Source: Anaerolineales bacterium
Lineage (GTDB): Bacteria; Chloroflexota; Anaerolineae; Anaerolineales; Villigracilaceae
DNA length: 64,000 nt
Reading direction: 5' to 3'
NCBI GenBank assembly: GCA_015075275.1
Contig: JABTUU010000002.1
Location: 1-64,000, forward strand
Shown here: positions 9,387 to 27,338 of the stretch, piece by piece
How the letters are laid out: each line of letters starts with the position of its first letter
Position numbering within the stretch: the stretch's first letter is position 1
Notes under the pieces: generated by a model
Told to the model about the DNA's origin: nothing
Database searches by the model: none
The model's input: only the letters and a program-made list of their open reading frames with translations
Program-made: the position numbers and the translations under genes

Positions 9387-9638
9387 GTGACTTCAACTAC
9401 ATTTATCAACATCCTTGGCTGGACGGGCTCCATCCTCTTCCTCCTCGCCTACACATTGGTCTCGCTCAAAAAAGCGGACGGTGATTCGCTTCTGTATCAA
9501 GGCATGAACATCGTAGCTGGCGTATTTCTCGTCGTTTACACATTCATACTCGGCGCGTACGCCACCACAGGTCTCAACACAGCATGGGTCGCCATCGGTT
9601 TGTTCACGCTGGGGCGCAGATGGCTCAACCGAAAATAA
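9387..9638 (+). CDS. Small membrane protein, CBU_0592-like
   Basis: GTG 9387 gives an 83-residue protein with three hydrophobic helices and the sequence ILGWTGSILFLLAYTLVS followed by LYQGMNIVAG, which resembles the small CBU_0592-type membrane family of unknown function. The start lies 4 bases past the stop of the permease gene, so it belongs to the same transcript. Its stop overlaps the next gene by 19 bases. Function unknown; a transport role is not implied by the position alone. Confidence 0.65.
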   Translation: MTSTTFINILGWTGSILFLLAYTLVSLKKADGDSLLYQGMNIVAGVFLVVYTFILGAYATTGLNTAWVAIGLFTLGRRWLNRK

Positions 9639-10381
9639 CCGCGCGCGTCACACCGAACGCGCGTGTGGATGAGATCGAGCATGGCTGGCGGCTCTCCATC
9701 CCAGCGGGGGATGCGACGAACTATCGCAACGCGCAACTGGACGACTACGCCGGACTCTCGCGCCATCAATTTCCGCATCGCTTCACTCGACGGATCAGCC
9801 TGTTCGCGCGAACTTCAAGCGACTCTATCCCCGGCACATGGGGCTTCGGCTTGTGGAACGATCCATTCGGGTTATCGCTCGGCTTCGGAGGAAATCCGTT
9901 TCGATTGCCCACGCTGCCGAATGCAGTTTGGTTCTTCGACGCGTCGAAGGAGAACTATTTATCGTTTCAAAATGAACGGACACATAAGCCCGCCCCTACG
10001 AATGGCTTCATAGCGCAGATTTTTCGCTCGCCAAAATTTCACCCGCTGTTAATTCCCGCCGGACTTGCCCTCGCCTTTTCACGCAAAACAACGAGGCAAA
10101 TGCTGGGAAGAATCATCGGCGAGGACAGAGTCGCCGTCAGCGTGAACGCGGCTGAATGGCACAGATACAGCTTGACGTGGGAAGAGAAGCGCGTGTCGTT
10201 CGAAGTGGATAATATTGAAGCGTTCAAATCGGATGTGAGCCCGAAGCCGCCGCTGGGATTGGTCGTCTGGATTGATAATCAATATGCGTCGTTTACCCCC
10301 GATGGAAAAGTCGGGTTCGGAGTATTGGCAAACCCCGAACCCGCATGGTTGGAAATTAAGGAACTAGAGATCAGAGATTAG
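9620..10381 (+). CDS. Protein with a probable concanavalin-like beta-sandwich fold
   Basis: ATG 9620 is preceded by GGGGCG and yields 253 residues without a signal peptide. Segments such as ISLFARTSSDSIPGTWGFGL, LWNDPFGLSLGF and WHRYSLTWEEKRVSFEVDN have the strand pattern of LamG/GH16-like jelly-roll domains, where the last phrase is a common beta-hairpin. The glycosidase ExDxxE catalytic motif is not seen, so an enzyme role is doubtful. It overlaps the preceding small membrane gene and its end overlaps, tail to tail, the UbiA gene on the other strand by 4 bases. The fold call is inference and the function is unknown. Confidence 0.55.
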   Translation: MAQPKITARVTPNARVDEIEHGWRLSIPAGDATNYRNAQLDDYAGLSRHQFPHRFTRRISLFARTSSDSIPGTWGFGLWNDPFGLSLGFGGNPFRLPTLPNAVWFFDASKENYLSFQNERTHKPAPTNGFIAQIFRSPKFHPLLIPAGLALAFSRKTTRQMLGRIIGEDRVAVSVNAAEWHRYSLTWEEKRVSFEVDNIEAFKSDVSPKPPLGLVVWIDNQYASFTPDGKVGFGVLANPEPAWLEIKELEIRD

Positions 10382-11433
10382 AAAGCCCAAAACGTTGGCA
10401 GGTAGGTGCGAAGCAACGCGTCAATGATCAAGCCAAGCAAAATATAGCCGCCGAATTTTCGGTTATGTTGAAAGGCGAAACCTGAAAACCAAATGGGCCA
10501 GAATGCGCGAGCTTGTTCCGGCGCTTCGGATGGCTTTGGGCGATTTAAAACTTTGATGACATTGAGAGCGTCTTTCGCGGCAAGAAAAACGATCAGCATC
10601 GCAGGGGTGAAGTAGCGCGAGACGAATACCAGATAAGCAACGATAATGTAAATGAGGCAGATCGCGACCTGATCGGTGCGGCGCGCAAACGCTTCGCCGA
10701 CGCGAACGGGGAACGTACCGACGCCTTTGATCTTATCGTCGTCGCGTTTGTCAATATGTTTAGCGATGTTGATGCTGGCGACGCCGAGTCCGTACGGAAC
10801 GCCCGCAAGAACCGCGCTCCACACATTAGACATGACGATCTCGTTTCCACTGAACAACGCCAGCACATAATAGACCCCGCCGATGATGATGGGACCCCAA
10901 ACGAGAAAGATGGCAAACTCGCCCAACCCCCAATATTTAAAGGGGTAAGTATATGCCAGCAGCGTAATCGCGCCGAATACGAATAACCCCAGAACGGCAA
11001 GGTTAAAGCCTGTGCTGATCAAAACATATATGCCTGCCAAGGTGGCTAACGTGCCGCTCGCTAAAAACCAGCGGATCTGCTGCGGTTTCGTAAAGAAGCC
11101 CTGCACAAGCGGGTGAACCCCATACTGAGAGCGGAAATAGTTATCTTTATCCACGCCGCGCGAGAAATCGGTGTAATCGTTGAGCAGGTTATTTGTGCCG
11201 TGCGCGATAAACAGACCGAGCGTGACGATCAGGAACGGAATCCACGAAAAATATCCATCGCGCGCAGCAAGGATGCCTGCGATTACGCACGAATAGACGG
11301 TGACCAACGTCACCGCCGAACGCGTAGCAATCAGCCACTTCGAGACTACGTCGAGCGCATCCCATTCTTTTTTATTGTCCATTTTGATGAGTTGCCACGA
11401 GGCTTTGCGCCACATAGCGAAATTGATATTCAT
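10378..11433 (-). CDS. UbiA-superfamily prenyltransferase, paralogue 1
   Basis: The 351-residue membrane protein has the first Asp-rich motif NNLLNDYTDFSRGVD, which binds the isoprenyl diphosphate through Mg2+, and a second one, KHIDKRDDDKIKGVGTFPV. The usual helices surround them. These enzymes attach isoprenoid tails to aromatic or other acceptors in the membrane, MenA of menaquinone synthesis being the closest well-known type. An extra N-terminal section (MWRKA, then KEWDALD and KWLIATR) is shared with the UbiA protein at 19257-20270, showing that the two are paralogues. ATG 11433 has AGGAGA before it; a GTG-style extension upstream is unsupported. Acceptor unknown. Confidence 0.85.
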   Translation of the reverse strand: MNINFAMWRKASWQLIKMDNKKEWDALDVVSKWLIATRSAVTLVTVYSCVIAGILAARDGYFSWIPFLIVTLGLFIAHGTNNLLNDYTDFSRGVDKDNYFRSQYGVHPLVQGFFTKPQQIRWFLASGTLATLAGIYVLISTGFNLAVLGLFVFGAITLLAYTYPFKYWGLGEFAIFLVWGPIIIGGVYYVLALFSGNEIVMSNVWSAVLAGVPYGLGVASINIAKHIDKRDDDKIKGVGTFPVRVGEAFARRTDQVAICLIYIIVAYLVFVSRYFTPAMLIVFLAAKDALNVIKVLNRPKPSEAPEQARAFWPIWFSGFAFQHNRKFGGYILLGLIIDALLRTYLPTFWAF

Positions 11434-12915: not shown

Positions 12916-15378
12916 TTAACCTGTATACGATTTTAGCCTCAAACTATTCGTCACCACAAAGACGCTGCTGAACGCCATCGCGCCAGCAGCGAGCATCGGA
13001 TTCAACCAACCCAGTGCGGCGGCGGGGATTAGGATCACGTTATAGAAGAACGCCCAGAACAAGTTTTGTTTGATCGTTGATAATGTCTTTCTCGATAAGC
13101 GGATTGCTTTCGCTATGCCGCGTAAGTCGCCGCTCATCAACGTCACAGGCGCCACCGCCATAGCAACGTCCGTCCCCGTGCCGATCGCGATGCCAACGTC
13201 CGCCTGAGCAAGCGCGGGGGCGTCGTTAATTCCGTCGCCAACCATGGCAATCACATTTACGATTTTCGATTGACGATTGGCGATTGACGATTGGAGATTT
13301 TTGACTTCTGAAGATTTCCCTTCGGGTAAAACCTCAGCAAGAACTGTATCAATACCAACTTGTTTTGCGATTGCCTCTGCCGTCTTTTGATTATCGCCTG
13401 TGATCATCGCAACCTTCAAACCCATGCGATGTAATTCGCCAATCGCATCTTTTGAATGCTCTTTCAACGTATCCGCCACGGCGATCACGCCTACGACCTC
13501 ATTATCTACGGCAACGATCATTGGAGTCTTCGCCTCTGTCTGAAGCCACTCCATCTCCGTATGAATATCTTGAACGGAAATATCTTCCGCGTTCATCAAG
13601 CGCAGGTTGCCGATCAATATTTTCCGACCATCCACATCTGCCGAAATACCCATGCCTGCCAATGCTTTGAAACCTGCCGCTTCAGCCAACGGAAGATCGC
13701 GCTTGGTTGCTTCAGCCACGATGGCTTCGCCCAATCCGTGTTCGCTTCCTTTTTCTGCAGAAGCCGCCAGATAGAGAATCGCGCTCTCATCCCAGCCTGC
13801 GCAGGCAACGCCATTCTTATCAGCCGCAGTAGATCGATCGGCAGAAATGATATCGGTTACAGTCGGCTGTCCCTTCGTGATCGTTCCCGTTTTATCCAAC
13901 ACAACGACGTTGACTTTGCCCGCGCGCTCCAACGCCTCGCTATTTCTGAACAGCACGCCCATCTCCGCGCCTTTGCCCGTCCCTACCATTACCGCCGTAG
14001 GCGTGGCAAGCCCCATCGCGCATGGACATGCAATCACAAGCACGGCGACCATATTGATCAATGCGCGAGTCAGGTCGCCCGGAGCGCCGAAGAAATACCA
14101 ACCCGCAAAGGTCAGCGCGGCGATGACGATCACCACCGGCACGAACACAGCGGAAACTTGGTCGGCGAGTCTTTGAATCGGAGCTTTGCTCCCCTGCGCG
14201 TCTTCCACCAATTTGATGATTCGCGCAAGCGCGGTTTCTTTACCGACTTTCGTCGCCTCAAATTTCAACGCGCCGAGTTTGTTCAACGTCGCACCAACGA
14301 CTGAGTCGCCTGGTTTCTTTTCCACCGGCAACGATTCGCCCGTCAGCATAGATTCGTCCACGTTGGATTTTCCTTCGATGACCACGCCGTCTACCGGTAT
14401 CATCTCACCGGGCTTTACAAGGACGACGTCGCCAACGCAAACATCGTCCACCGGAACGGAAACTTCCTCTCCATTGTGAATGACACGCGCCGTTTTAACG
14501 CGAAGACCCATCAACTTCTTGATCGCTTCAGAGGTGCGTCCTTTGGCGCGCGATTCCAAATATTTTCCAAGCCGGATCAACGTGATGATCACCGCGGCGG
14601 TCTCGAAATAGACATGCCCTGGAATTACTCCGAAGGCAATAAATATGGAATAAACGTAGGCGACCGTAGAGCCCATCGCAACAAGAACATCCATATTGGC
14701 GGAGCCGTTGCGCAAAGATTTGTACGCGCCGACGTAATACTGCCAGCCCACATAGAACTGAACCGGCGCAGCGACGATCATCATCGCATAATTCGCCCAA
14801 GGCGCGTGCGCCCAATGCCCCAATAAATTGAAATCGCGCAACATGGAAAAGACGAACAACGGCGCGGTAAAGATTAAACCGATAACGAACATCCGAAACT
14901 GTTCATTAACTTCATGTTCGCGCGCAATGGCTTCAGCGTCTTCAGCGTCTCCGCCAAGTTCTATCGTCTCAAAGCCCGCCTGCGTCATCGCCGCCCGAAT
15001 CTCCGATTGGCTGACAATAGTCGGAACATATTTGACGCGTGCCTTTCCACTAGCGTACGATGCTTGCGCTTCAAGCACGCCGTCCAACTTGAGCAATGCC
15101 GCTTCAAGCCGGCGCGCATCATTATCGTCCGCGATGCGCTTAATCACGAGGTCTGCTTCGCCCGTCGCTACGCCGTATCCTGCGCGATTAACGCGCGCAA
15201 TAAAATCAGGCAACGCCAGCTTTGTCGCGTCAAAGTCCACCGTTGCGCGCTCAGACGATAAGTTAACAACGGCGGTCTGTACGCCGTCTAATTTCTTAAG
15301 GTTGCGCTCTACTGTCGCAACGCAGTTAGCGCAGGTCATACCTGTGATAGGAAGGGTAAGTTGTTTTGTATCAGTCAT
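12916..15378 (-). CDS. copA: Copper-exporting P1B-type ATPase, CopA type
   Basis: CopA pumps Cu(I) out of the cytoplasm with ATP. The 820 residues hold, in order: an HMA domain with GMTCANC (Cys 16 and 19); a second HMA-like domain (about 80-145) whose metal-binding Cys pair is gone; eight membrane helices with the CPC motif at 451-453; TGES at 346-349 (phosphatase loop); DKTGT at 495-499, with the phosphorylated aspartate; an HGLGEAI-type HP motif region in the nucleotide domain; and GDGINDAP near the end of the P domain. An extra stretch at about 695-708 is encoded by six heptamer repeats and lies just before GDGIND. The gene is last in the csoR operon, 259 bases after the YHS gene. Confidence 0.96.
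13255..13296. repeat. Six heptamer repeats inside copA
   Basis: On the plus strand ATTTACG, ATTTTCG, ATTGACG, ATTGGCG, ATTGACG and ATTGGAG follow one another. The 42 bases equal 14 codons and keep the frame. They encode a polar, Gln/Ser/Asn/Arg-rich insert of the ATPase P domain. Heptamer short tandem repeats are known from cyanobacteria; here the unit differs. Confidence 0.8.
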
Positions 15379-15637
15379 GGTATTTGCTTTCTACATTCGT
15401 TCAATTTTCATCCAAGGGATGCTCAATCTCGTCTGCCATAAAAACGCGGCGGAGTTTTGTTCGGAAACGCGCAAATAAATATCCATATAGAAATATATCC
15501 GCTCGCCACGATGCATCGCACTCGATAGCTCGCGAGACCTGTCAGCCTTTCTTCACATGCCGTTTTTGCGGTCACGGCTTGCTGTTTATCAAACGGCTCT
15601 TCCACGCTCCCAGCCATAACGGAGGCACGGCGTGGCG
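15379..15637 (-). other. 259-base gap between the YHS gene and copA, no supported gene
   Basis: A 64-codon frame exists on the minus strand (15423-15617), but its translation shows no domain, no good ribosome site and no convincing composition. Near the YHS stop the minus strand can fold (CCACGC with GCGTGG, and CTCC with GGAG inside), without a T-run. This may be an mRNA processing or attenuation element between copB-YHS and copA. Confidence 0.4.
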
Positions 15638-15808
15638 TTAAGCCTGTTCGCTGTTATTCAAATATTTATCAGGGTCTTTTTCGAAAGATTTCTTGCAGCC
15701 AAGCGAGCAAAAATAATAAGTCTGTCCTTTGTATTCGGAGACGCCAGCGGCAGTTTCAGGGTCAATATCCATGTGGCAAACAGGATCATGCACTGTAGTT
15801 GTTGTCAT
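15638..15808 (-). CDS. YHS-domain protein, likely copper-binding
   Basis: This 56-residue protein (ATG 15808, TAA 15638-15640) is nearly all one YHS domain: HDPVCHMDI with Cys 11 at the start, then YKGQTYYFCSLGCKKSF with Cys 34 and Cys 39, then DPDKYL. YHS domains occur on heavy-metal ATPases and as separate small proteins, where the cysteines are thought to bind metal. It lies 22 bases after copB and well before copA, inside the CsoR-controlled operon, so a role in passing or holding Cu(I) is likely. AAGGAGTAAAG precedes the start. The reaction is not established. Confidence 0.9.
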   Translation of the reverse strand: MTTTTVHDPVCHMDIDPETAAGVSEYKGQTYYFCSLGCKKSFEKDPDKYLNNSEQA

Positions 15809-15830
15809 ACTTTACTCCTTATTTTTGTTG

Positions 15831-17948
15831 TTAATTTAAATTTACCCGCCGCAGTAATTGGGCGTTGATTGCCACGACGATCGTGCTCACTGACATTAAC
15901 AGCGCGCCGACTGCGGGTGAAAGCAGAATCCCAGCCGAGGCAAGGATGCCTGCGGCTAAAGGCAATGCGACAATATTGTAGCCCGAAGCCCAGATCAGGT
16001 TTTGAATCATTTTGTTGTAACTGGCGCGGCTTAGTTTGAAAATCTTGACCACATCCAGCGGGTTGCTCTTCACCAAAATAATTCCTGCGGACTCAACAGC
16101 TACATCAGTACCACTACCGATGGCAATGCCTACGTCAGCGCGAGTGAGAGCGGGCGCATCGTTGACGCCGTCGCCGACCATCGCAACCTTTTTACCTTGT
16201 TTTTGAAGTTCGATCACTTTTTCATCTTTGTGTTCGGGCAACACCTCCGCAAAATACAAACTGATTCCCAGTTCATCAGCGACGGCTTTGGCGACATCCT
16301 TGCTGTCACCCGTCAACATAGCAACTTGCACGTTCATCTCATTTAATTTTTGTATCGCCGAATAACTTTCAGGTCGGATGACATCAGCCAAGGCGAGCGC
16401 GGCGAAAATCTTTCCGTCAACGATCAGATAGACGACGGTCTGACCCTTTGTCCCTGAGGAAGAAGCGAATTCCGCAAATCCCGAATCAGGCTGAATGGTG
16501 AGCAGTTCCAGCAAGCGCGGACCGCCCACCCACAAATCCTTCCCGTTGTGTTTGGCGCGGATGCCGCGTCCTTTGATGGCTTCAAAATCAGTTACGACTG
16601 GCAGTTGCAAATTTTTCTCTTGCGCCGCAGAACGGATCGCTCGGGCGATGATATGTTCCGAGTCCGCCTCAACAGCCGCAGTGAGGGCGAGAGCGTGGTT
16701 TTCATCCACGCCATTGGTTTTGACAGCCACCACGCCCTGCTCGCCTTTCGTGAGCGTGCCAGTTTTGTCGAAGATCACCACGTCAATCTCACGCGCGGCT
16801 TCGAGCGCCAAACGGTTGCGGACTAAAATCCCGTTCTGCGCCGCGGACGTGGCGCTGATCGCCACAACAAGCGGGACAGCCAGCCCCAGCGCGTGCGGAC
16901 ACGCGATCACCAACACTGTGACGACGCGCTCCAACGTGAAAAGGTCGAAGCCCAACGCGATTGTCCACAAAATGGCAGTGAGCGCGGCAACACCGATGGC
17001 AAGATAGAAAAGCCAGCCCGCGGCTTTATCGGCTAATATTTGCGTGTTCGATTTACTTTGTTGCGCGTCATGAACCAAACGCATGATTCCAGCCAGCGCG
17101 GTCTGTTCACCAATGGCTGACACGCGGACGCGCAAACTCCCATCTTGATTGATACTGCCCGCGATCACTTTCGCGCCGATAGTTTTTTTCACGGGAAGCG
17201 ACTCGCCCGTGATCATCGCTTCGTTCACATCGGACTCGCCGTCTGCCACCACACCATCAGCAGGGATACTCGCCCCAGGGCGGACAAGCACGAGGTCGTT
17301 CAACTTCAACGACGATGCTGGCATGGTGTGAACACTGCCGTCGGGCATGATGTGTTCGGCGGTGTCGGGCATCAACTTTGCCAACGCGTTCAACGCGCCT
17401 GAAGCCTGACGGACACTTCGCATTTCGATCCAATGTCCCAACAACATGATGTCAATGAGTGTGACCAGTTCCCAGAAAAATCCTTCGCCTAAATTGAAGA
17501 ACAACGCAGCGAGGCTGTACACAAACGAGACCAAGATCGCCAACGAGATCAACAGCATCATGCCGGGTCGGCGGTTGCGAATCTCTGGGACTGCCATTTG
17601 AATGAACGGCACGCCGCCATAGACAAAAACGATCACGGCAAACAGCGGCAGAATCCATTGACTGCCCATGAATTCAGGCATCCTGAATCCAAACCACATC
17701 TGAAGCATAGGCGTGTAGAGCAATACTGGAATGCTCAACACTAACGAGACCCAGAATTTTTTGCGGAACATGTCTTCATGTCCGCTATGATCTGTATGGT
17801 TCGCATGTTTATTTTGTGCGGAAGCCGAATCGTGCATTTCGTGCCCCGAGTGGGCAAAATAAGACGGCTTCACATCTGGCTGCGCATGCGAATCGTGTTT
17901 CATCTCCTCACGATGATAGTCTTTATGCGTTTTGTGGGCGTCGTTCAT
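15831..17948 (-). CDS. copB: Copper-translocating P1B-type ATPase, CopB type
   Basis: The 705-residue pump has no Cys-based metal domain. Instead, residues 1-58 are rich in histidine and methionine (HSGHEMHD and [10 protein letters not shown]), as in CopB-like ATPases. The membrane metal motif is CPH at 350-352 rather than CPC. TGES (247-250), DKTGT (394-398) and [10 protein letters not shown] mark the catalytic cycle. CPH-type pumps are associated with copper (some studies favour Cu(II) or silver), so it may complement CopA with a different oxidation state or flux. It lies between copZ and the YHS gene in the operon. Confidence 0.94.
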
Positions 17949-17989
17949 TATGCCTCGTACAAAACAATAAGAGGATATTCATCCCTTTT

Positions 17990-18208
17990 TTACAGAGTGA
18001 TCAGCCCTTCCGCCGGGTAATTCAGTTCAGCCAACAATGCCTTGATCTGCGTCTCGTCAGCGGGAGCGTCGAACATAATCTCAACTTTTCTCGCATCGAG
18101 ATTCGCCTTAACAGATTGCACGCCAGCCAACTCGCCAACTTCCACCTCGATAGTGTGCGTGCAATGATTACAATGCATGGCGGGAACGGAATAAGTAACG
18201 GTAGTCAT
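17990..18208 (-). CDS. copZ: Copper chaperone, single HMA domain
   Basis: The 72-residue protein is one ferredoxin-like HMA domain with MHCNHC (Cys 13 and 16) as the Cu(I) site, slightly different from the usual MxCxxC with Thr or Ala between. It would carry Cu(I) in the cytoplasm to the ATPases or to CsoR. Strand-helix order and length fit CopZ. AAAGGAGAAAACT sits directly before its ATG. The gene follows csoR by 92 bases and precedes copB by 41. Confidence 0.92.
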   Translation of the reverse strand: MTTVTYSVPAMHCNHCTHTIEVEVGELAGVQSVKANLDARKVEIMFDAPADETQIKALLAELNYPAEGLITL

Positions 18209-18300
18209 AGTTTTCTCCTTTAGGGTTATTAAAATTTCTTACGATTAACTGCGGAATTATCCATTCGCAGATAAATCCTACTTTTTACGCACAAACTGCG

Positions 18301-18603
18301 CTACACTTTTGTAGACATATCAAACACTTCGGCAATTTCTTTCAATACACGCTGGCGTTCCTCCTTGTCATTCCCTTGAATCGCAGCAATGACGCATGAA
18401 TTTAAGTGGTTTTCAAGGATCTGGCCGCTAACCTTACTTAATGCCCCATCCACCGCTTGAATCTGACGAATTATGTCAATGCAATACGCATCTTCCTCGA
18501 CCATACGAATAATGCCGCGTAAATGCCCTTCAACTGTTTTCAAACGTCGGAGCGTAGCCTTTGTGTCCACATTTTCCTCTTTCTTCTTGACAGCGGATTC
18601 CAT
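18301..18603 (-). CDS. csoR: Copper-sensing repressor CsoR (DUF156 family)
   Basis: The 100-residue all-helical protein has the CsoR ligand set: Cys 41 in YCIDIIRQIQA, His 66 and Cys 70 in NHLNSCV. Cu(I) binding by this Cys-His-Cys set releases the protein from DNA in known members. The N-terminal extension KKKEENVDTKATLRRLKTVEGHLRG includes the basic DNA-contact region. It is the first gene of the copper operon and a matching operator overlaps its own promoter (18612-18630), so it probably represses itself along with copZ, copB, the YHS gene and copA. RcnR-type nickel sensing is less likely, given the ligands and the neighbours. Confidence 0.93.
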   Translation of the reverse strand: MESAVKKKEENVDTKATLRRLKTVEGHLRGIIRMVEEDAYCIDIIRQIQAVDGALSKVSGQILENHLNSCVIAAIQGNDKEERQRVLKEIAEVFDMSTKV

Positions 18604-18835: not shown

Positions 18836-19231
18836 ATGCAAATTACACGTCAAGCCGATTACGCCTTGCGGGCGATCTTACACCTTACGCGCGCCAGCCA
18901 AGGTAAGCGCATCTCCACCAGTCAGATCGCAAAAGCGCAATGCATTCCCTCTTCGTTTCTAGCGAAAATCATCTCACAACTCTCAATTGCAGGACTCCTC
19001 CACACCTCTCGCGGCGCGCGGGGAGGCATCGCTCTCGCGCGCGATCCCAGCCAAATCACCATGCTCGAAGTCATCGAAGCAATTGACGGGCCCGTTCAAC
19101 TCAACGTCTGCGTTGACCGAGTCGGTCTGTGCGCGCTCGAAGAAAACTGCGCCATGCAACTTGTTTGGCGCGAAGCGCAAGACGCCCTAACGACGCAATT
19201 ACGCAGCGCAACATTTGCACAATTCATTTAA
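18836..19231 (+). CDS. Rrf2-family transcriptional regulator
   Basis: The 131-residue protein starts MQITRQADYALRAILHL and has the winged-helix wing sequence RGARGGIALARDPSQI typical of Rrf2/IscR/NsrR proteins. Three cysteines, 92, 99 and 105 (NVCVDRVGLCALEENCAM), have the spacing of the iron-sulfur ligands in cluster-binding members, so it probably senses iron-sulfur status, nitric oxide or redox state. GAGAAAGG before ATG 18836 is a good ribosome site. It is followed after 25 bases by UbiA paralogue 2 on the same strand and stands at the head of the UbiA/cytochrome region; regulation of those genes is inferred. Confidence 0.92.
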   Translation: MQITRQADYALRAILHLTRASQGKRISTSQIAKAQCIPSSFLAKIISQLSIAGLLHTSRGARGGIALARDPSQITMLEVIEAIDGPVQLNVCVDRVGLCALEENCAMQLVWREAQDALTTQLRSATFAQFI

Positions 19232-19256
19232 TCAAATCAGCAGAAAAGGACGATTC

Positions 19257-20270
19257 ATGAACGTATCTATGTGGCGCAAAGCTCTTACAGTAATTCCAAA
19301 CGTCTCAAAAGAAGAATGGGATCAGCTTGACGCAATTTCACGCTGGCTGATCTCGACTCGCGCCGCCGTGCTCGTGATGACCGTTCTTTCAGCGGCTCTC
19401 GCGGGACTATTAGCCTGGCGCGACTCCTCGTTCAACCTCTCCGCCTGGATCGCGGTAACGCTGGGCTTGGTTTTGGCGCACGCCAGCAACAACCTCTTAA
19501 ATGATTATGTGGACCATGCGCGCGGCGTAGACCAAAAAAATTACTTTCGCACTATGTACGGTCCGCATCCGCTTGAAAACCGTCTTCTCACAAAACGACA
19601 ACATCTCGCCTACTTTATCTTCACGGTCGCGCTCGCATTCATCTGCGGACTCTACCTTATGGCGCGCAACAGCTATGCGCCGCAAGCATGGTTCCTATTG
19701 GGCGCGGGCGCATTTTTACTCCTCTTCTACACCTGGCCCTTGAAATATATCGCCCTTGGCGAGATCGCTGTTTTCCTCGTTTGGGGTCCGCTCATGGTCG
19801 GCGGCGGTCATTACGTTATCACCGGCGCTTGGAGTTGGAACGCGGCGCTCATCGGCTCAATCTACGCTTTCGGCGTAACGACGGTTATCTTCGGTAAGCA
19901 CATTGACAAACTCGCGATTGATCGAGAAAAACGAATTCATACCCTGCCGGTCGTTATCGGCGAGAAGGTATCGCGTTACATGGTCATTGGGATGATGATA
20001 TTTCCCTATTTGATCATCTTTCACCTGATTGGAAACAAAGTCTTCTCGCCCGTTCTTCTAGTCACGCTGTTGGCGTTACCCAGCCTACGACAAGTTGTTC
20101 CAGCCTTCCTTAAGCCCAAACCCGCCGAACGTCCAGCAGATTTCCCCGAAGGACAGGGCGGCTGGCCCCTATACTTCGCCCCGCTATCATTTGTGTATAA
20201 TCGCGCTTTCGGTTCCTATTTCTTATTGGGATTGTTGGCGGATACATTGATCCGTAAATTTCTGATGTAA
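19257..20270 (+). CDS. UbiA-superfamily prenyltransferase, paralogue 2
   Basis: ATG 19257 (preceded by AAAAGGACG) gives 337 residues. The N-terminal section MWRKA, KEEWDQLD and RWLISTRAAV matches paralogue 1 at 10378-11433. The first Asp motif is NNLLNDYVDHARGVD; the second is altered to GKHIDKLAIDREKRIHTLPV, still keeping acidic residues for Mg2+. About eight helices follow the UbiA pattern. It should join an isoprenyl chain to an acceptor in the membrane. It follows the Rrf2-type regulator closely and is probably cotranscribed with it. The difference in the second motif from paralogue 1 suggests a different acceptor. Confidence 0.85.
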   Translation: MNVSMWRKALTVIPNVSKEEWDQLDAISRWLISTRAAVLVMTVLSAALAGLLAWRDSSFNLSAWIAVTLGLVLAHASNNLLNDYVDHARGVDQKNYFRTMYGPHPLENRLLTKRQHLAYFIFTVALAFICGLYLMARNSYAPQAWFLLGAGAFLLLFYTWPLKYIALGEIAVFLVWGPLMVGGGHYVITGAWSWNAALIGSIYAFGVTTVIFGKHIDKLAIDREKRIHTLPVVIGEKVSRYMVIGMMIFPYLIIFHLIGNKVFSPVLLVTLLALPSLRQVVPAFLKPKPAERPADFPEGQGGWPLYFAPLSFVYNRAFGSYFLLGLLADTLIRKFLM

Positions 20271-20484: not shown

Positions 20485-21393
20485 ATAAAATCCACATTTT
20501 GGCAAGGGTTCTGGAGGTTGGCAGATCCGAAAATCTCGCTGGCGTCTTTTGCGTCTATATTTCTGGGCGCGTGCGCGGCGGCGTCAGATGGAACGCTTTA
20601 TTTCGGATGGTTGGCAGCGACGCTTATCGGAATCTTCGCCATCGAGATCGCCAAAAACGCTTCCGGCGAAATATTCGATTGGAACAGCGGGAACGATCAA
20701 GCGGTTATGCCTGAAGATCGCTCCCCCTTTTCGGGCGGCAAACGCGTCCTTGTAGACAAGTTATTGACGAAACGTCAGACGGCTGGCATTGCATTGGCTG
20801 GTTATGCGATCGGCGGCATTACAGGGCTCATTATCTTTCTCGAACGAGAGCCGTCCGTTTTGTGGCTGGGAATTATCGGCATAGCGCTTGCTTTCTTCTA
20901 CCATGCTCCGCCTTTGAAACTGTCATATCGCGGAATGGGCGAATTAGCAGTCGCTGCGTCGTACGGGCCGCTGATTGGCGCGGGGACGTATCTCGTCCAG
21001 CGCGGAACCGTATCGTCTGCGATCATCTTGGTCGCCGCTTTGCTGGGCGTCTTCATCGCGGCATTTCTGATCATCAACGAATTCCCCGATTTTCACGCAG
21101 ATCAAGCCGCCGGGAAACGAACGCTCGTGGTGTTGCTAGGAAGAAAGCTTGCAAGCCAATTATTCGTCGCTATCATAGCGGTCGCATTTCTGATTGCGCT
21201 GCTTCTGCCGCTTCTACAATTTTCCCCCGCGCTCTGGCTAGGGCTGATCGCCGTCGTTCCATCCTTTTCCGCGTCTAAGCGATTGCTTGCAAACCCAGAA
21301 ACAACCGCTCAAATCATCCCTGCACAAGCAAACGCCTTACTAACGTTTATACTCTTCGCGCTTGGAAGCGGAGTGGGGTTTCTATTAAGTTGA
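20485..21393 (+). CDS. UbiA-superfamily prenyltransferase, paralogue 3 (possible ATA start)
   Basis: This protein shares no N-terminal extension with the other two. It has KNASGEIFDWNSGND as a divergent first motif and NEFPDFHADQAAGKRTLVV as a MenA-like second motif. No ATG, GTG or TTG lies between the upstream stop (20446) and TTG 20518. The TTG has a GGAGG touching it, which cannot serve it. AGGAG at 20471-20475 is ideally placed for ATA 20485, which would add IKSTFWQGFWRLADPK with the first residue read as Met, giving 302 residues. Either a rare AUA start or a changed base is likely. DUF411 follows by 21 bases. Confidence 0.82.
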   Translation: MKSTFWQGFWRLADPKISLASFASIFLGACAAASDGTLYFGWLAATLIGIFAIEIAKNASGEIFDWNSGNDQAVMPEDRSPFSGGKRVLVDKLLTKRQTAGIALAGYAIGGITGLIIFLEREPSVLWLGIIGIALAFFYHAPPLKLSYRGMGELAVAASYGPLIGAGTYLVQRGTVSSAIILVAALLGVFIAAFLIINEFPDFHADQAAGKRTLVVLLGRKLASQLFVAIIAVAFLIALLLPLLQFSPALWLGLIAVVPSFSASKRLLANPETTAQIIPAQANALLTFILFALGSGVGFLLS

Positions 21394-21414: not shown

Positions 21415-21864
21415 ATGAAAAAATTTTACAGCCTGCTGGCTGCGCTTGCCGTTTTATTGAGCGCTTGTGCAAGCCAAACCGCAGACGGGATTCCAATCAC
21501 GATTTATCGCTCGCCCACTTGCGGCTGTTGCGGCGCCTGGGCTGACTACGTCGCAGACAACGGGTTTAAGCCAACGGAAGAAAATACGCGAGACATGTCT
21601 CTCGTCAAAGTTAAATATCATGTTCCTATTGAACTTCAATCCTGCCATACCGCTATCATAGACGGCTATGTGATCGAGGGACATGTTCCCGTCAGGGAGA
21701 TCAAACGCCTGCTGCAAGAACAACCCGCCGCGCTTGGAATAGCCGTCGGCGGAATGCCTATTGGCTCGCCCGGCATGGAGGTTGCCGGCGTAGAAGCCGA
21801 ACCCTTTAATGTGATCCTGTTCTATGCCGATGGGACACAGGAAATTTACGCCAACTATCCATAA
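21415..21864 (+). CDS. DUF411 metal-binding lipoprotein
   Basis: The 149-residue protein has a lipoprotein signal ending LLSAC (Cys 18), then a thioredoxin-like DUF411 domain: SPTCGCCGAW with Cys 36, 38 and 39, ELQSCHTA with Cys 77 and His 78, and GIAVGGMPIGSPGME. DUF411 proteins are associated with copper and are often encoded beside copper-export or cytochrome genes. It would sit lipid-anchored outside the membrane. AAGGAG precedes ATG 21415. Its place between UbiA paralogue 3 and the decaheme cytochrome suggests extracytoplasmic metal handling linked to cytochrome assembly; that is inference. Confidence 0.9.
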   Translation: MKKFYSLLAALAVLLSACASQTADGIPITIYRSPTCGCCGAWADYVADNGFKPTEENTRDMSLVKVKYHVPIELQSCHTAIIDGYVIEGHVPVREIKRLLQEQPAALGIAVGGMPIGSPGMEVAGVEAEPFNVILFYADGTQEIYANYP

Positions 21865-22031: not shown

Positions 22032-24221
22032 ATGAAACTCAAAAGCATATTAATCGTTATAGGCGCAACGCTCATTTTTACTGCGATTCTCGCCGCTTGC
22101 GGAGCCACGCCGACCGCCGCTCCTCAAGAACCCACTGCCGTAGAAACGCCTCCCCCTACAAGCGTTCTTGAAACGCCTTTCTTGGCAGATTGGGAAAAAA
22201 GCGGTCATGCGAACGCTTCAAATTACCCCTTCCGTCACTGGGATGAAGAAGACCCAGCCGAAGTTCCGACCTATTGTGCGAAATGTCATACCAGCGCAGG
22301 CTATCAAGACTTCCTCGGCGTAGATGGCAGCGCGGCAAATAAAGTGGATGCCGCCGTCCCGGCGGCTGAATCGCAAGGCATCCAATGCGTAACCTGTCAT
22401 AATTCGGTCACCGTTTCAAGAACAACGGTAACCTTTCCTTCCGGCGCGACAATCACCGCCGGCGCCGACGCCCGTTGTATGGACTGTCACCAGGGGCTTG
22501 AATCGAAGATCAGCGTAGACGCGCAGATCGAACTCTTTAGCGCGGCGGATCATCCTGATACGGTCGTCGCTCCCATCAAAGACGCTCAAGGTAACGATCA
22601 AACTTTCGGCTTCAACGGCATTCATTATTACGCGGCGGCGGCGACGCTGTACGGCAATAAGGCTCTCGGCGGCTACCAATACGACGGCATGGCTTACGAC
22701 TCGAAAAACGATCACGTGCCCGGCTACGACACCTGCATTGGTTGCCACGACTCGCACACGTTGGAAGTGAAAGTGCGCGAATGTTCGGTATGTCATCCCA
22801 GCGCAAGTGCAGTAGAAGATCTTAAATCCATCCGTATGGTCAGCTCGTTGAGCGATTATGACGGCGACGGCGATACGCGCGAAGGTATGTATTACGAAAT
22901 CCAAGGTTTGCAAAGGATTCTATACGCTCAAATGCAAGCGTACGCCGCGCAAACCGTAGGAACTGGCTTACTCTACGACGACCATTCCTATCCGTACTTC
23001 TTCAAGGATACCAACTCGAACGGCGAGATAGACGAAGGCGAAGCTGTCTTCCCGAACGCTTTCACATCATGGACGCCTCGTCTGCTCAAAGCCGCCTACA
23101 ATTATCAGGTTTCTCTCAAAGATACGGGCGCGTTCGCACACGGCAATAAATATATCGTCCAACTGCTATACGACTCGATCGCCGACCTCGGCGGCGACGT
23201 CGTCAAACTGGTGCGCACCGATGCAGGACACTTCGCCGGTAATACCGAACCGTTCCGTCATTGGGATGGCGAAGCGGAAGGCGGAGGCGTCGTGCCGTAC
23301 ACCTGCGCAAAATGTCACACTGTCGAAGGGCTCCCGCAGTTTATCCAAAACGGCGGCACAACAGTCGTCGCCGCAAATGGAACGACGCAAATCGTCGGGC
23401 TGGGAGCGCTGCCCGCCAGCAACGGCTTCCAATGTTCTACTTGTCACAACGAAGCCTCCTTCCCCGATCGTTACGCGATTAATTCCGTCACTTTTCCCAG
23501 CGGAAAGACAGTCAGTTACGGCGGTAAAGACGCAGACGGAAAGTACCTGCCCGATGATTCAAATCTATGTATCGCTTGTCACCAAGGGCTTGAATCTACA
23601 ACTAGCGTCAATAACGCCTTACGCGGCAAAGACCTCGATACAGTCGATCCGAAGATCCGCTTCAAGAACATTCATTACTTTGCAGCTGGTTCAACGCTAT
23701 TCGGCGCAGACGCACAAGGCGCATATCTCTACGAAGGCAAGCAATACGCTGGTGAATTTATGCACGCTAAGCCGGATGGCAGGGTCAACAAATGCCAGGA
23801 TTGCCATGACGTGCACGCGCTCGAACCTAAGATCAAAGCCTGCGAGACCTGCCACAGCGTTTCAAACCCGGCTCTAATTCGCGAAAGCGACGTGGACTAC
23901 GACGGCGACGGCGATGTGCAGGAAGGCGTCTCCGGCGAAATCTCAACGCTGGCTGAAGTCCTCTACGCTCAAATGCAGGCGTACTCTGAAACGCATGGCG
24001 GTCTCCTCGTCTATAACGGAAACGCCTATCCCTACTTCTTCGACGCAAACGGCAAAGGCTACGCGGCATGGACGCCTCGCCTCATGAGAGCCGCGTTCAA
24101 TTATCAGTATGTTCAAAAAGACCCGGGCGCGTACGTTCACAACGCAAAGTTCGTCATCCAGTTCCTGATCGACTCTATCGAAGATCTCGGCGGCAACGTG
24201 AGCGCCTATACGCGACCGTAG
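22032..24221 (+). CDS. Decaheme c-type cytochrome lipoprotein, duplicated pentaheme
   Basis: The 729-residue protein has a lipoprotein signal ending AILAAC (Cys 23) and ten CxxCH heme sites, at Cys 82, 119, 149, 235, 251, 425, 468, 513, 588 and 604. The halves are repeats. Each has FRHWD before its first heme, CAKCHT, a CHNxxx site, CHQGLES, an IHYxAA..TL block, two close hemes, a DYDGDGD Asp-rich loop (calcium-like), LYAQMQAY and WTPRL with NYQ. It should be lipid-anchored on the outer face, carrying electrons over a long distance. GGAG at 22021 sets ATG 22032. A terminator follows it, so it can be expressed apart from the genes downstream. Partner or terminal acceptor unknown; no substrate-binding active site was recognised. 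Confidence 0.93.
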   Translation: MKLKSILIVIGATLIFTAILAACGATPTAAPQEPTAVETPPPTSVLETPFLADWEKSGHANASNYPFRHWDEEDPAEVPTYCAKCHTSAGYQDFLGVDGSAANKVDAAVPAAESQGIQCVTCHNSVTVSRTTVTFPSGATITAGADARCMDCHQGLESKISVDAQIELFSAADHPDTVVAPIKDAQGNDQTFGFNGIHYYAAAATLYGNKALGGYQYDGMAYDSKNDHVPGYDTCIGCHDSHTLEVKVRECSVCHPSASAVEDLKSIRMVSSLSDYDGDGDTREGMYYEIQGLQRILYAQMQAYAAQTVGTGLLYDDHSYPYFFKDTNSNGEIDEGEAVFPNAFTSWTPRLLKAAYNYQVSLKDTGAFAHGNKYIVQLLYDSIADLGGDVVKLVRTDAGHFAGNTEPFRHWDGEAEGGGVVPYTCAKCHTVEGLPQFIQNGGTTVVAANGTTQIVGLGALPASNGFQCSTCHNEASFPDRYAINSVTFPSGKTVSYGGKDADGKYLPDDSNLCIACHQGLESTTSVNNALRGKDLDTVDPKIRFKNIHYFAAGSTLFGADAQGAYLYEGKQYAGEFMHAKPDGRVNKCQDCHDVHALEPKIKACETCHSVSNPALIRESDVDYDGDGDVQEGVSGEISTLAEVLYAQMQAYSETHGGLLVYNGNAYPYFFDANGKGYAAWTPRLMRAAFNYQYVQKDPGAYVHNAKFVIQFLIDSIEDLGGNVSAYTRP

Positions 24222-24241
24222 GGCGCATTCGATAGTCACTG

Positions 24242-24272
24242 AAAAAGGCAGCGCAAAAACGTTGCCTTTTTC
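24242..24272 (+). terminator. Rho-independent terminator after the decaheme gene
   Basis: AAAAAGGCAGCG pairs with CGTTGCCTTTTT (one G-T pair), and the T-run forms the end of the stem. It is likely symmetric enough to act on either strand. Confidence 0.85.
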
Positions 24273-24400
24273 ATATCGGATAATAACGACTGTAATGACT
24301 TTTATTGTCCAAATTTATGACAGTCTACACTAACTTACGCTGGCATTAACCGATACTATCGTTAATGAAGAATTCCGCTTTTTTACGGAGAATGCAAACA

Positions 24401-25219
24401 ATGAAACCGACAAAATCTCTTCTTTTTATTGCGGGAGCGCTTACGCTATTTGCCGTTTTTGCCGCGCTTATTCTCATGTCCGCTCAAACAGTCTCTGCAA
24501 TTGCGCCAGCGGAAGCGGCTCAACAAGACTTAAAAGATTGTCTACGTTGTCATGAGCAGCCTGCGGCGCTCTGGGAGAGTAGCCCGCATCGCGAACACAA
24601 CATCAGTTGCACCGTTTGTCACAAACTCGCCGATAGCGCGGGAATGCATCCTGAGACTGCAAAATATACCGTGGAGAGCGAAGAGACTACTTGTTTGGTA
24701 TGTCACGGCAGCGCCTCCAAAGAGAACGTCGCCAGCGAGATGGCTGCCAGCCAACATGCAGCGGTCGGCTTAAATTGCGTCAGTTGCCATAAACAGCATT
24801 CGCAGGGGCTTAAGGTCGCATCCGAAGCGCGCACTGTCTGTGAAAACTGCCATAAGGCTGAGATGCGCAACATGGTCGAGTCTACTCACTTCGCGGCGGG
24901 GCTCAGTTGCGTTAATTGTCATATGGGCGACGGCAAGGATCACTCAATGAACATATCAGCGTCAACCTGCAGCGATTGCCACACCGATCTCCATCAAGCC
25001 AGAGAAATGCTCGACGCCGGGGTAGAAGTGAACGCAATGGCAAATCCGAAGGCTCTGGTCACACAAGTTCCAGCGGAACAAACGCCCGCGACCGCGCCGC
25101 AAGGCGGCGTTCATCTGCCAGCCTGGGTATACGCGCTGGCGGGCGTCATCATCGGCGGAGTTGCCGCATGGGCGGTATTCGGTCGCGAACCGGGCTCGGC
25201 AAACGGGAAAAAACCCTAA
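24401..25219 (+). CDS. Heptaheme c-type cytochrome, membrane-anchored
   Basis: ATG 24401 has GGAG 10 bases upstream and begins a strong signal or anchor segment (residues 6-33); in-frame ATGs at 24365 and 24392 are possible but less well placed. Seven CxxCH sites (Cys 47, 70, 98, 126, 147, 170, 190) resemble the cytochrome c3/NrfH-like family, in which short heme-rich modules pass electrons from membrane complexes. Many extra histidines can be the distal ligands. A C-terminal helix (about 240-260) and a basic tail anchor the protein with the hemes outside. It is followed after 23 bases by the ferredoxin-like subunit, and so is probably the electron link between that complex and the decaheme lipoprotein. 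Confidence 0.9.
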   Translation: MKPTKSLLFIAGALTLFAVFAALILMSAQTVSAIAPAEAAQQDLKDCLRCHEQPAALWESSPHREHNISCTVCHKLADSAGMHPETAKYTVESEETTCLVCHGSASKENVASEMAASQHAAVGLNCVSCHKQHSQGLKVASEARTVCENCHKAEMRNMVESTHFAAGLSCVNCHMGDGKDHSMNISASTCSDCHTDLHQAREMLDAGVEVNAMANPKALVTQVPAEQTPATAPQGGVHLPAWVYALAGVIIGGVAAWAVFGREPGSANGKKP

Positions 25220-25242
25220 CTGAGGGACGAGGAGAGAAAACG

Positions 25243-26073
25243 ATGACGGAACATGAAAGCAAGCAAGTAAACGCGGAAGAGAACACAGGAACAACCCGCC
25301 GCGACTTTCTGAAACTGGCTGGAGCAATGGTCGCGGCCGCCGGCGTAACTCAATTCATCCCGTCCGCAAAAATAGCCGCGCGCGCCGCCTCCGAAGAAGA
25401 AAGCAAACATCAGTGGGGTATGTTGATTGATATTAATCGCTGTATCGGCTGTCAGTATTGCACGTTCGCTTGCGACGCAGTCAATAATCTCGCCGAAGAT
25501 ATGCGTTATTGCGTAGTCACCACAGAAACGACTCAATCGGGCGATGAGTTCTTCCTTTCGCGCCCATGTATGCACTGCGAAGAAGCCCCGTGCGTACATG
25601 TCTGCCCCGTCGGCGCGACGTACAAGCGTCCCGACGGAATCGTGGCGATGAATTACGATCTATGCATTGGTTGCCGCTATTGCCAGATTGCGTGCCCATA
25701 CGAAGCGCGCGTGTTTAACTGGAAGAAACCTATCGAGTTAAGCCCCCAGTCTCCTACTTTCGGATACCCTGAAGTTCCCAATCGCCCGCGCGGCGTAGTG
25801 GAAAAGTGCACGTTTTGTTCACATCGCATTGACGCAGGGCTGGAGCGGGGTCTTATACCCGGCGTAGATTCGCAAGCGACGCCCGCTTGCGTGGTCGCCT
25901 GCCCCACATCTGCCCGCGTTTTCGGCGACTTGAACGATCCCGAAAGCCCAATCTCCGAAGCGTTGGCAAACGCTAAAGTCACTCTCCGTCTGCGCGAGGA
26001 ACTTAGCACGAAGCCGCGGGTATACTACATCCCCCCCGATCCGAAGGCGGAAAACCCATTCCAAGGAAGTTGA
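25243..26073 (+). CDS. TAT-exported four-cluster ferredoxin subunit (DmsB/PsrB/HybA type)
   Basis: GGAGAG sets ATG 25243; the much longer frame upstream is not translated sense. The 276 residues start with TTRRDFLKLAGA, a twin-arginine signal, so the protein folds in the cytoplasm with its clusters and is exported. Sixteen cysteines in four groups (67, 70, 73, 77; 109, 112, 117, 121; 141, 144, 147, 151; 189, 192, 216, 220) bind four [4Fe-4S] clusters, as in the electron-transfer subunits of DMSO, polysulfide and hydrogenase-type complexes. It overlaps no gene but ends 2 bases before NrfD, its natural membrane partner. No molybdopterin catalytic subunit is encoded nearby. Confidence 0.95.
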   Translation: MTEHESKQVNAEENTGTTRRDFLKLAGAMVAAAGVTQFIPSAKIAARAASEEESKHQWGMLIDINRCIGCQYCTFACDAVNNLAEDMRYCVVTTETTQSGDEFFLSRPCMHCEEAPCVHVCPVGATYKRPDGIVAMNYDLCIGCRYCQIACPYEARVFNWKKPIELSPQSPTFGYPEVPNRPRGVVEKCTFCSHRIDAGLERGLIPGVDSQATPACVVACPTSARVFGDLNDPESPISEALANAKVTLRLREELSTKPRVYYIPPDPKAENPFQGS

Positions 26074-26075
26074 TC

Positions 26076-27338
26076 ATGCAAACAACGATTCATCGTCCTA
26101 AACTTCAAATCGGAAAACACAGCGTTGACATCTTCCCCTACTGGATGGGGTTGCTGGTCGCTGGGCTGCTCTTTGGACTGATCGGCGCGTTCACCGTATT
26201 GCGCGACGGTCTACAAGTAACGGGGCTTTCCAACCGCGTCCCTTGGGGATTATGGATCTCTATTGATCTCTCCTCCATCGCTATGGGAGGTTCGGCGTTC
26301 GTATTCGGCGTGATCGTTTACCTCCTGCGATTGAAACGCTTCGAAACGATCGGAAAATTGGCGGTCTTGCTCGGATTCCTCGGATATTCCACCGCCGGCA
26401 TGGTGCTGCTGTTCGATCTCGGTCAACCGCTCCGTTTTTGGCACCCGGTCGTATTCTGGCAGCCTCATTCGCTCCTCTGGGAAGTGACGATGTGCGTGGT
26501 GCTTTACCTGACTGTGCTGGTCGCCGAAATGGCGCCGATCATTGTGGAACACCCCTTCTTCACGGATCATCCGCTCTATAAGAAATTTCCCATTGTCAAA
26601 AAAGCCGCCTCTGCCGCCAAAACGATTGCTCACTGGCTGCATAAAGCCGGCCCCGCCCTCGCCATCATCGGGCTGACGTTATCGCTTCTCCATCAAGCTT
26701 CGCTCGGCGCGACATACTCCGTCATCTCGGGACGCGGCGTTTGGTTCAATCAAAGCGCGCCGGTGCAATTCGTTTTATCCGCAATGAGCGGCGGGACGGC
26801 GCTATTATTCTTTTTAGGCGTTATCGTCTTCCGCGTCATGCGCCCCGGAACAGTTGAAGACAGCGCTTTATACGACGTTGCGCGGCTCTCCGGCGGTGTG
26901 ACGTTGCTGCTCACCTATCTGCGCCTATGGGATTGGGCGGTCACCAATTACTATTCGTTCGATCGCAACATCAGCCTACAAACTGAAGCGCTGAACGCAG
27001 TCGCTCCTTACTCGTTGTCATTTTGGATCGGGCAGGCGCTTCTGCCCATCATCGCCGGCTCCGTTCTGCTCGCGGCGAAATCAATCAAAAACTTCCGCTA
27101 TCTGATGGCGTTTGCGGTCATACCGATCTTCGCCGCCATCCTTATGCGTTGGAATTACAATTTCTCAGGGTTAATCGCCACTCCTACATACGCGCCCTTT
27201 ACGCCGACCATCATCGTTAACTCCTACGCTCCTACCTGGGTGGAGTTCTCGGTCGCTGCGCTGGTGATTTCCTACTGGTTGCTCATGTTCAGTCTCGCCA
27301 TTCGCTATCTGCCGTTTAAAGCGGAGAACGAGCGCTAG
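26076..27338 (+). CDS. NrfD/PsrC-type quinone-reactive membrane subunit (HybB branch)
   Basis: The 420-residue protein has about ten hydrophobic helices and NrfD-family features: a short start then PYWMGLLVAGLLFG, PWGLWISIDLSSIAMGG, and SLLHQASLGATYS, which resembles the HybB group. These proteins exchange electrons with membrane quinones and pass them to a ferredoxin subunit at the outer face. ATG 26076 is preceded by AAGGAAG; a TTG at 26070 overlaps the preceding stop. It is the last gene of the cytochrome group and would be the quinone entry or exit point of the chain NrfD, 4x[4Fe-4S], heptaheme, decaheme. Confidence 0.93.
   Translation: MQTTIHRPKLQIGKHSVDIFPYWMGLLVAGLLFGLIGAFTVLRDGLQVTGLSNRVPWGLWISIDLSSIAMGGSAFVFGVIVYLLRLKRFETIGKLAVLLGFLGYSTAGMVLLFDLGQPLRFWHPVVFWQPHSLLWEVTMCVVLYLTVLVAEMAPIIVEHPFFTDHPLYKKFPIVKKAASAAKTIAHWLHKAGPALAIIGLTLSLLHQASLGATYSVISGRGVWFNQSAPVQFVLSAMSGGTALLFFLGVIVFRVMRPGTVEDSALYDVARLSGGVTLLLTYLRLWDWAVTNYYSFDRNISLQTEALNAVAPYSLSFWIGQALLPIIAGSVLLAAKSIKNFRYLMAFAVIPIFAAILMRWNYNFSGLIATPTYAPFTPTIIVNSYAPTWVEFSVAALVISYWLLMFSLAIRYLPFKAENER

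Follow-up and report, generated by a model that had tools for sequence, protein, structure and literature searches.

A 64,000-nucleotide stretch of the genome of an Anaerolineales bacterium (contig JABTUU010000002.1, positions 1 to 64,000; hereafter the window) contains four genes, all on the + strand and tightly packed between positions 22032 and 27338, that encode a decaheme lipoprotein (DECA), a membrane-anchored heptaheme cytochrome (HEPTA), an iron-sulfur (Fe-S) protein exported by the twin-arginine translocation (TAT) system and an integral membrane protein of the NrfD family; the next gene is convergent. We favour, with moderate confidence, the reading that these genes form a menaquinol-linked extracytoplasmic respiratory module, i.e. 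a Cbc4/Nrf-like quinol dehydrogenase feeding an OcwA-like terminal reductase at the cell surface. An earlier account made from the sequence alone (the sequence-only reading) had proposed a quinone-coupled module of NrfD, Fe-S protein and heptaheme with the decaheme as outermost carrier, which our results support, and had described the chain as being without a catalytic subunit. That description holds insofar as no molybdenum enzyme, hydrogenase or canonical NrfA gene is adjacent, but it assumes that DECA is only a wire. Because DECA is predicted to have the fold of the NrfA/OcwA reductase superfamily and occupies the nrfA position in an nrfABCD-like gene order, it may itself be the terminal reductase, i.e. 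the supposedly missing enzyme. The features of the cluster are as follows (window coordinates).

22032..24221, + strand: DECA, decaheme lipoprotein of 729 residues with lipobox LAAC and two pentaheme halves (40-sequence family alignment, AlphaFold2 (AF2) model)
22164..23201, + strand: N-terminal half of DECA, pentaheme, predicted NrfA/OcwA-type fold (AF2, Foldseek, VIA-align)
23211..24218, + strand: C-terminal half of DECA, second pentaheme copy (BLASTP to the first half; same five CxxCH and five conserved His columns in a joint alignment)
24365..25219, + strand: HEPTA, membrane-anchored heptaheme cytochrome (seven CxxCH, C-terminal transmembrane (TM) helix)
25243..26073, + strand: TAT-exported protein with four [4Fe-4S] clusters, NrfC/DsrO/QrcC type (TAT motif, 16 cluster Cys, family models)
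26070..27338, + strand: NrfD-family integral membrane quinone subunit, nearest models QrcD, HmcC and HybB (PF03916, NrfD tree)

DECA is a tandem pentaheme protein with a predicted reductase fold

DECA has ten CxxCH motifs, as the sequence-only reading had counted, at residues 82, 119, 149, 235, 251, 425, 468, 513, 588 and 604 (about 0.02 would be expected from its amino-acid composition), and its signal peptide ends in the lipobox LAAC. Among 40 DECA relatives, for which mechanical start sites were used, 24 had a simple lipobox pattern in their N-terminal 75 residues. With 40% identity in BLASTP (E 2e-68), the N- and C-terminal parts of DECA are homologous to each other, i.e. the protein is a tandem duplication, and half-length pentaheme relatives were found in other Anaerolineae.

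When 43 halves and pentahemes were aligned jointly, the His of all five CxxCH motifs was invariant, as were four of five further His residues, the fifth being conserved in 98%. Relative to the heme motifs, these further His are ordered like the heme ligands and active-site His of E. coli NrfA: one precedes heme 1, one precedes the fourth motif at the same seven-residue distance, one separates the fourth motif from the fifth, one is in the helices at the C-terminus, and one occupies the position of the His in the NrfA active site. Such numbers agree with five bis-His hemes per half or with four such hemes and one open site. The catalytic heme motif CxxCK was absent from all 43 halves and pentahemes. 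Both halves of DECA have CAKCH as their first motif, the His of which is invariant in all 43. As some true NrfA proteins carry CxxCH in place of CxxCK, the missing CxxCK is not decisive by itself against NrfA membership. In the joint alignment no Arg was invariant in the stretch from the first distal His to the first heme motif, which in NrfA holds the active-site Arg, and the NrfA profile (PF02335) had no match in the genome and weakly matched five of the 43 halves and pentahemes (best E 0.0024).

The AF2 model of whole DECA had a confidence (pLDDT) of 87.8, and that of the N-terminal half 93.4. Since the fold search with the whole model was dominated by the first half and gave poor Foldseek E-values, we used the half-domain model; the whole model matched the same NrfA/OcwA family over residues 45-388. 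The top Foldseek match of the half model was the outer cell wall cytochrome OcwA (6i5b, probability 1.00, E 1.9e-3). In VIA-align, NrfA scored a Z of up to 12.9 (3ubr_A; root-mean-square deviation (rmsd) 4.6 A over 249 residues; 2rdz, Z 12.7), and OcwA was tied with it (Z 12.3, rmsd 4.2 A, 220 residues, 22% identity), followed by octaheme nitrite reductase (Z 11.9), OmhA (Z 11.1) and HAO-type proteins (about 6). All matches with Z of at least 6 belonged to this NrfA/octaheme nitrite reductase/OcwA/OmhA/HAO superfamily, and unrelated chains scored no higher than 3.5. MtrC-, OmcS- and NrfB-type folds do not appear in this VIA-align list, which is not evidence of their exclusion.

The other three proteins form a probable quinone-linked electron-transfer chain

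HEPTA has seven CxxCH motifs, a hydrophobic segment in its N-terminal part and a TM helix at the C-terminus, in agreement with the sequence-only reading, and its conserved start is probably Met13 at 24401. Seven further His residues are each conserved in 88-100% of 26 relatives (one at 88%), which matches seven bis-His hemes. HEPTA is therefore probably a pure electron carrier, since the conserved extra His are as many as the hemes.

The Fe-S protein carries a TAT motif (RRDFLKLAG) and has 17 Cys, of which 16 lie in four cluster motifs, as had been noted from the sequence, and one is extra (C99 of the translation from 25216). Its start is likely to be 25243; the mechanical open reading frame starts at 24916. 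Its closest NCBIfam models were DsrO, QrcC, TtrB and NrfC, of which only DsrO was above its cut-off (225.6 bits, cut-off 200; QrcC 175.7, cut-off 400; NrfC 153), and its relatives in the PDB include Fe-S parts of alternative complex III and a polysulfide reductase-type NrfC protein. We rejected its assignment as DsrO on context, as the co-encoded DsrM, DsrK, DsrJ and DsrP are not among its neighbours, which are DECA, HEPTA and a QrcD/HybB-type NrfD. An automatic annotation would mislabel this protein as sulfate reduction, as it scores above the DsrO cut-off in a locus without Dsr partners.

The fourth gene matched PF03916 with 60 bits (cut-off 25.8), which bears out its earlier identification as an NrfD-type membrane protein. 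The more specific models were all below their cut-offs (QrcD 185.9 bits, cut-off 570; HmcC 125.3; HybB-type 96.2; DsrP 45, cut-off 350). Membership of Qrc was not indicated, as neither the QrcC nor the QrcD equivalog score was reached and no QrcB-like gene is present in the operon.

DECA is genetically linked to membrane electron-transfer modules

Among 298 sampled genomes of the class, 92 carried DECA relatives, and a scan of the GTDB collection returned 525 stretches with such relatives. The best 80 of these 525 loci were nearly all from Chloroflexota, with one Myxococcales and two Acidimicrobiia metagenome-assembled genomes (MAGs) as exceptions; the Myxococcales MAG (L202) has 15 CxxCH in one open reading frame, and the Acidimicrobiia loci are L213 and L215. 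We then used the 54 DECA loci of at least 15 kb to look at linkage. In 49 of them a recognised membrane electron-transfer module lay within 10 kb of DECA: NrfD was found in 27, a nonaheme cytochrome (usually with b561) in 32 and an ImcH-like NapC-type protein in 28. In the isolate Thermanaerothrix daxensis (L196) the partner of DECA is the nonaheme cytochrome plus b561. DECA and NrfD were within 10 kb of each other in 17 of the 42 listed genomes that have DECA and a strong NrfD homologue, for which a rough estimate of chance proximity is about 1% each (4-Mb genome).

The sequence-only reading had suggested searching Anaerolineae for the same four-gene order, and this order recurs in relatives. 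In a tree of 58 NrfD homologues the window belongs to an 11-row clade (100/100 support) that is linked to DECA in every row, and in a search seeded with NrfD all five homologues of at least 73% identity adjoin DECA. No separate catalytic subunit (molybdenum enzyme, hydrogenase or canonical NrfA) is adjacent in this clade, so the earlier claim is not refuted on this point. A second NrfD clade, consisting of octaheme-FeS-NrfD triads and separated from that of the window by a long branch (2.11), is linked to DECA in 24 of 27 rows, many of which come from DECA-seeded loci. A third clade, from which that of the window is separated as well, has a 10-11-heme cytochrome and a rhodanese-repeat protein as linked genes; this pair, which lies beside other NrfD triads, was set aside because it belongs to a different NrfD clade.

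A 563-residue heptaheme protein that lies beside DECA in seven loci (L036, L035, L040, L062, L066, L105 and L106) was suspected to be an octaheme nitrite/tetrathionate reductase and hence the missing catalytic subunit. It was rejected as catalytic, as the member tested by Pfam, NCBIfam and PDB searches is an ImcH-like quinol dehydrogenase of NapC/NrfH type with extra hemes.

The half-size pentaheme relatives were paired in five of five loci (L053-L057) with a ferric-reductase/NADPH-oxidase-like flavocytochrome of 438-458 residues (e.g. L053:8136-9257 and 9551-10864), which in the one case tested has PF01794 and FAD- and NAD-binding domains. Together these two proteins would be a compact pair for export driven by NAD(P)H. 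Genes for Ccm cytochrome maturation, recognised via the genome of the window, lie alongside in some relatives.

Proposed electron path and alternative explanations

By analogy with its family, NrfD would exchange electrons with the menaquinone pool, oxidising menaquinol, and the electrons would pass through the four [4Fe-4S] clusters to the seven bis-His hemes of HEPTA and from there to DECA. DECA would lie on the outer face of a cell without an outer membrane, where, like OcwA, it would serve as the terminal reductase or electron outlet for extracellular acceptors, e.g. metal oxides, humics, shuttles, partner cells or electrodes. The extracellular route of the sequence-only reading thus remains the best available idea, with its direction and the surface exposure of DECA still at the level of analogy. 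Outward flow is favoured because of (i) the relation of DECA to OcwA and OmhA, (ii) the co-occurrence of DECA modules with ImcH-like proteins and (iii) the pairing of the half-size relatives with ferric-reductase-like flavocytochromes. The favoured reading as a whole also draws on the linkage of DECA to membrane modules, the lack of Omp85 and the presence of a Ccm system in the genome, and the extracellular electron transfer performed by a Chloroflexota isolate, Ardenticatena maritima. A broader reading, which we put forward tentatively as somewhat less than an even chance, is that DECA represents a widespread class of surface terminal reductase (a tandem NrfA/OcwA-type pentaheme, mainly in Anaerolineae) that has independently been joined to various modules for quinol oxidation (two or more NrfD clades, ImcH-like proteins, and nonaheme plus b561), giving one outlet with interchangeable inlets.

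Several results weigh against the surface reductase reading. The relation of DECA to NrfA and OcwA rests on predicted structure because sequence methods do not detect it: a sequence/profile search of the PDB with DECA gave no relation to OcwA or NrfA and returned only a nonaheme cytochrome c (E about 0.007), and hhalign of DECA to a single NrfA sequence (E. coli) was weak (probability 30). VIA-align Z-scores of 12-13 with rmsd values of 4-5 A are good but not overwhelming. The closest NrfD model, QrcD, belongs to a quinone-reducing complex, and the genome encodes another possible carrier, a 15-heme cytochrome unlinked to the block. Finally, linkage counts taken from the loci that were seeded with DECA are conditional, and the tight clade found by seeding with NrfD consists of only five genomes.

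A rival explanation is a divergent Nrf-type complex, in which DECA, with one active site per half, would reduce a soluble substrate (nitrite, hydroxylamine or another N or S oxyanion) and be fed by NrfB-, NrfC- and NrfD-like proteins. The nrfA-B-C-D gene order, the NrfA fold with Z up to 12.9, the NrfA order of the five further His of each half, one of them in the active-site slot, and two NarG-like nitrate reductases in the host all agree with this. In OcwA, too, the active-site hemes are bound by CxxCH, and this protein reduces nitrite at a slow rate (PMC6703420). However, none of the halves has CxxCK or an invariant Arg in the expected interval, the NrfA Pfam model is without a match in the genome and weak in only five of 43 halves, and DECA is mostly tied to ImcH-like and multiheme-b561 modules, which makes this explanation unlikely. 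Even less probable is a chain that runs inwards, with outside or periplasmic donors (Fe(II), partner cytochromes or cathodes) reducing DECA and the triad reducing menaquinone. Qrc reduces quinone, and its models were the best match of NrfD (185.9 bits) and the second-best of the Fe-S protein; both scores, however, fall far short of their cut-offs, and a QrcB gene is lacking. Among Chloroflexota, the isolate Ardenticatena maritima performs both anodic and cathodic extracellular electron transfer (EET), the cathodic process being coupled to nitrate (PMC5808234), and the host of the window has nitrate reductases and alternative complex III. Against inward flow, DECA modules co-occur with ImcH-like proteins; one survey found ImcH homologues in Fe(III) reducers and nowhere else (PMC6295460). 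We consider it very unlikely that the triad is a general extracytoplasmic hub, reducing cytochromes for several unlinked enzymes while DECA stores or distributes charge with no external acceptor. Shewanella has a general quinol dehydrogenase of this sort in SirCD (PMC11434368) and other redox enzymes are encoded elsewhere in the genome, but all 11 rows of the clade show tight linkage of one DECA to the triad, and the predicted reductase fold of DECA also argues against a mere store.

Comparison with known systems

OcwA and OmhA are surface cytochromes that have been characterised experimentally in iron-reducing monoderms. The former is the terminal reductase at the surface of a Gram-positive species; its hemes 5-9 are NrfA-like, and two of its hemes are open and have histidine as proximal ligand (PMC6703420). 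On ferrihydrite, Carboxydothermus ferrireducens has OmhA as its main surface cytochrome (PMC7829351). Like OcwA (Thermincola potens) and OmhA, DECA combines a predicted pentaheme NrfA-type core with a monoderm host and no porin-cytochrome complex, and like OcwA it has CxxCH at the first heme of that core. Unlike them, DECA is a lipoprotein made of two tandem pentaheme copies (10 hemes) and has no sequence relation to them by profile search; OcwA consists of four c554-like and five NrfA-like hemes, and OmhA has 11 hemes.

The order DECA-HEPTA-FeS-NrfD on one strand is that of nrfABCD of E. coli MG1655. Both clusters encode a cytochrome of reductase fold (predicted for DECA), a small multiheme cytochrome, a TAT-exported Fe-S protein and NrfD. 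The cluster of the window differs in that it has neither CxxCK nor an NrfA profile match, its first subunit has ten rather than five hemes, HEPTA is membrane-anchored, and the NrfC and NrfD models are far below cut-off. Modules that contain NrfD and no catalytic subunit, i.e. Cbc4 (CbcSTU) of Geobacter and SirCD of Shewanella (Fe-S plus NrfD), have been described as EET-linked menaquinol:cytochrome c oxidoreductases (PMC11434368), so that aspect of the cluster is not new. By gene content, Cbc4 as defined there resembles our cluster in having a multiheme c, a 4x[4Fe-4S] protein and NrfD without a catalytic subunit; unlike Cbc4 and SirCD, the cluster is tied to a decaheme of predicted NrfA/OcwA fold and occurs in a monoderm phylum. 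The Qrc, Hmc and DsrMKJOP complexes of sulfate reducers have homologous Fe-S and NrfD subunits (QrcC/D, HmcB/C and DsrO/P), but the operon has no partners of QrcB, DsrM or DsrK type, and scores are below cut-off except for DsrO.

In the literature searched, the coverage of which was partial, the combination, the tandem decaheme family and the interchangeable quinone modules appear to be undescribed, and the sole co-mention of OcwA with Chloroflexota was unrelated. Anaerolineae are abundant in sediments, sludge and anammox granules, some Chloroflexota show EET, and the module would probably let single-membrane cells respire materials outside the cell. A candidate terminal reductase together with its quinone module, predicted fold and distribution makes the question of Chloroflexota EET directly testable. 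If our favoured reading is true, it extends to Chloroflexota the idea from OcwA and OmhA that monoderms recruited nitrite-reductase-type cytochromes, rather than MtrC or OmcS types, as surface outlets.

Neighbouring genes and host genome

In the genus of the window and its nearest relatives the four genes are part of a larger block with the order Rrf2, UbiA, UbiA, DUF411, DECA, HEPTA, FeS, NrfD. The additional genes in the window are listed below.

18836..19231, + strand: Rrf2-family regulator, head of the conserved block (PF02082, 122 bits)
19215..20270, + strand: UbiA-family prenyltransferase 1, MenA-like (PF01040; MenA models, under cut-offs; conserved block)
20518..21393, + strand: UbiA-family prenyltransferase 2, MenA-like (PF01040; MenA models, under cut-offs; conserved block)
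21415..21864, + strand: DUF411 lipoprotein (CopG-like, probably copper), linked upstream gene (PF04214)

The DUF411 gene also adjoins DECA in G351, HKUEN02, UTCFX1, DTUCFX3, KLAP176 and MAG-267, and the Rrf2 gene of the block is also present in G351, UTCFX1, KLAP176 and MAG-267. The presence of two MenA-like prenyltransferases in the block suggests a link to quinone synthesis. A dedicated quinone pool has reportedly been proposed for DmkA in Listeria-type EET; for the present module such a pool is only an idea, because UbiA-family genes number eight in this genome. Window positions 12916-18603, immediately upstream of the block with its CopG-like DUF411 gene, encode two copper-type P-type ATPases and a CsoR-like regulator; in G351 no such ATPases are seen ahead of the block. 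A promoter scan gave sites no more numerous than in shuffled sequences, terminators were not clearly above shuffles, and an Rfam search gave zero matches.

The genome (2.88 Mb, two contigs, 95.7% complete) represents an Anaerolineae species near the MAGs HKUEN02 and UTCFX1, to which DECA, the Fe-S protein and NrfD are 97-99% and HEPTA 95-97% identical, confirming a Chloroflexota origin. Searched by protein family, it has no match to Omp85 (PF01103), for which seven of 14 control genomes were positive, which is consistent with a monoderm cell. As the sequence-only reading had stated, no molybdopterin, hydrogenase or nitrite-reductase enzyme is encoded in the window: no match in the genome to the molybdopterin (PF00384) or NrfA profile falls there, and the sole NiFe-hydrogenase match (PF00374) is sub-threshold and on the other contig. 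Elsewhere the genome encodes the two NarG-like enzymes, a third molybdopterin enzyme, alternative complex III and a Ccm heme-attachment system. An ImcH-like protein was represented only by a 39-bit match to its C-terminal domain. Sites encoding CxxCH number 179 in the whole genome versus 72 for the reversed pattern, and the Cytochrome_C7 profile found only four multiheme genes, i.e. those of the complex III pentaheme, DECA, HEPTA and the 15-heme protein.

The 15-heme cytochrome, which has one N-terminal anchor, belongs to a second multiheme locus (C1:443000-450500; L071:6039-13336) together with an NAD(P)H-type FAD oxidoreductase, a b561-like protein with four TM helices, an S41 peptidase and another UbiA-family gene. 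At C1:307600-309750 (L072:7611-9743), near Ccm genes and a MauG/NosD-like fusion protein, the genome encodes a 711-residue protein with five TM helices, a 4Fe-4S domain and two CCG domains, i.e. an HdrD/DsrK-like fusion. In L108, L110, L112, L113, L115, L111, L118 and L123, octaheme-FeS-NrfD genes of a different NrfD clade are linked to genes for a four-rhodanese-domain protein and a cytochrome with 10-11 hemes, with a LysR regulator joining the locus in L108; these loci are possibly a sulfur-compound respiratory system. In two further Anaerolineae loci (L046:11277-16926 and L061:848-8684) DECA adjoins very large cytochromes with 22, 29 and 32 CxxCH motifs.

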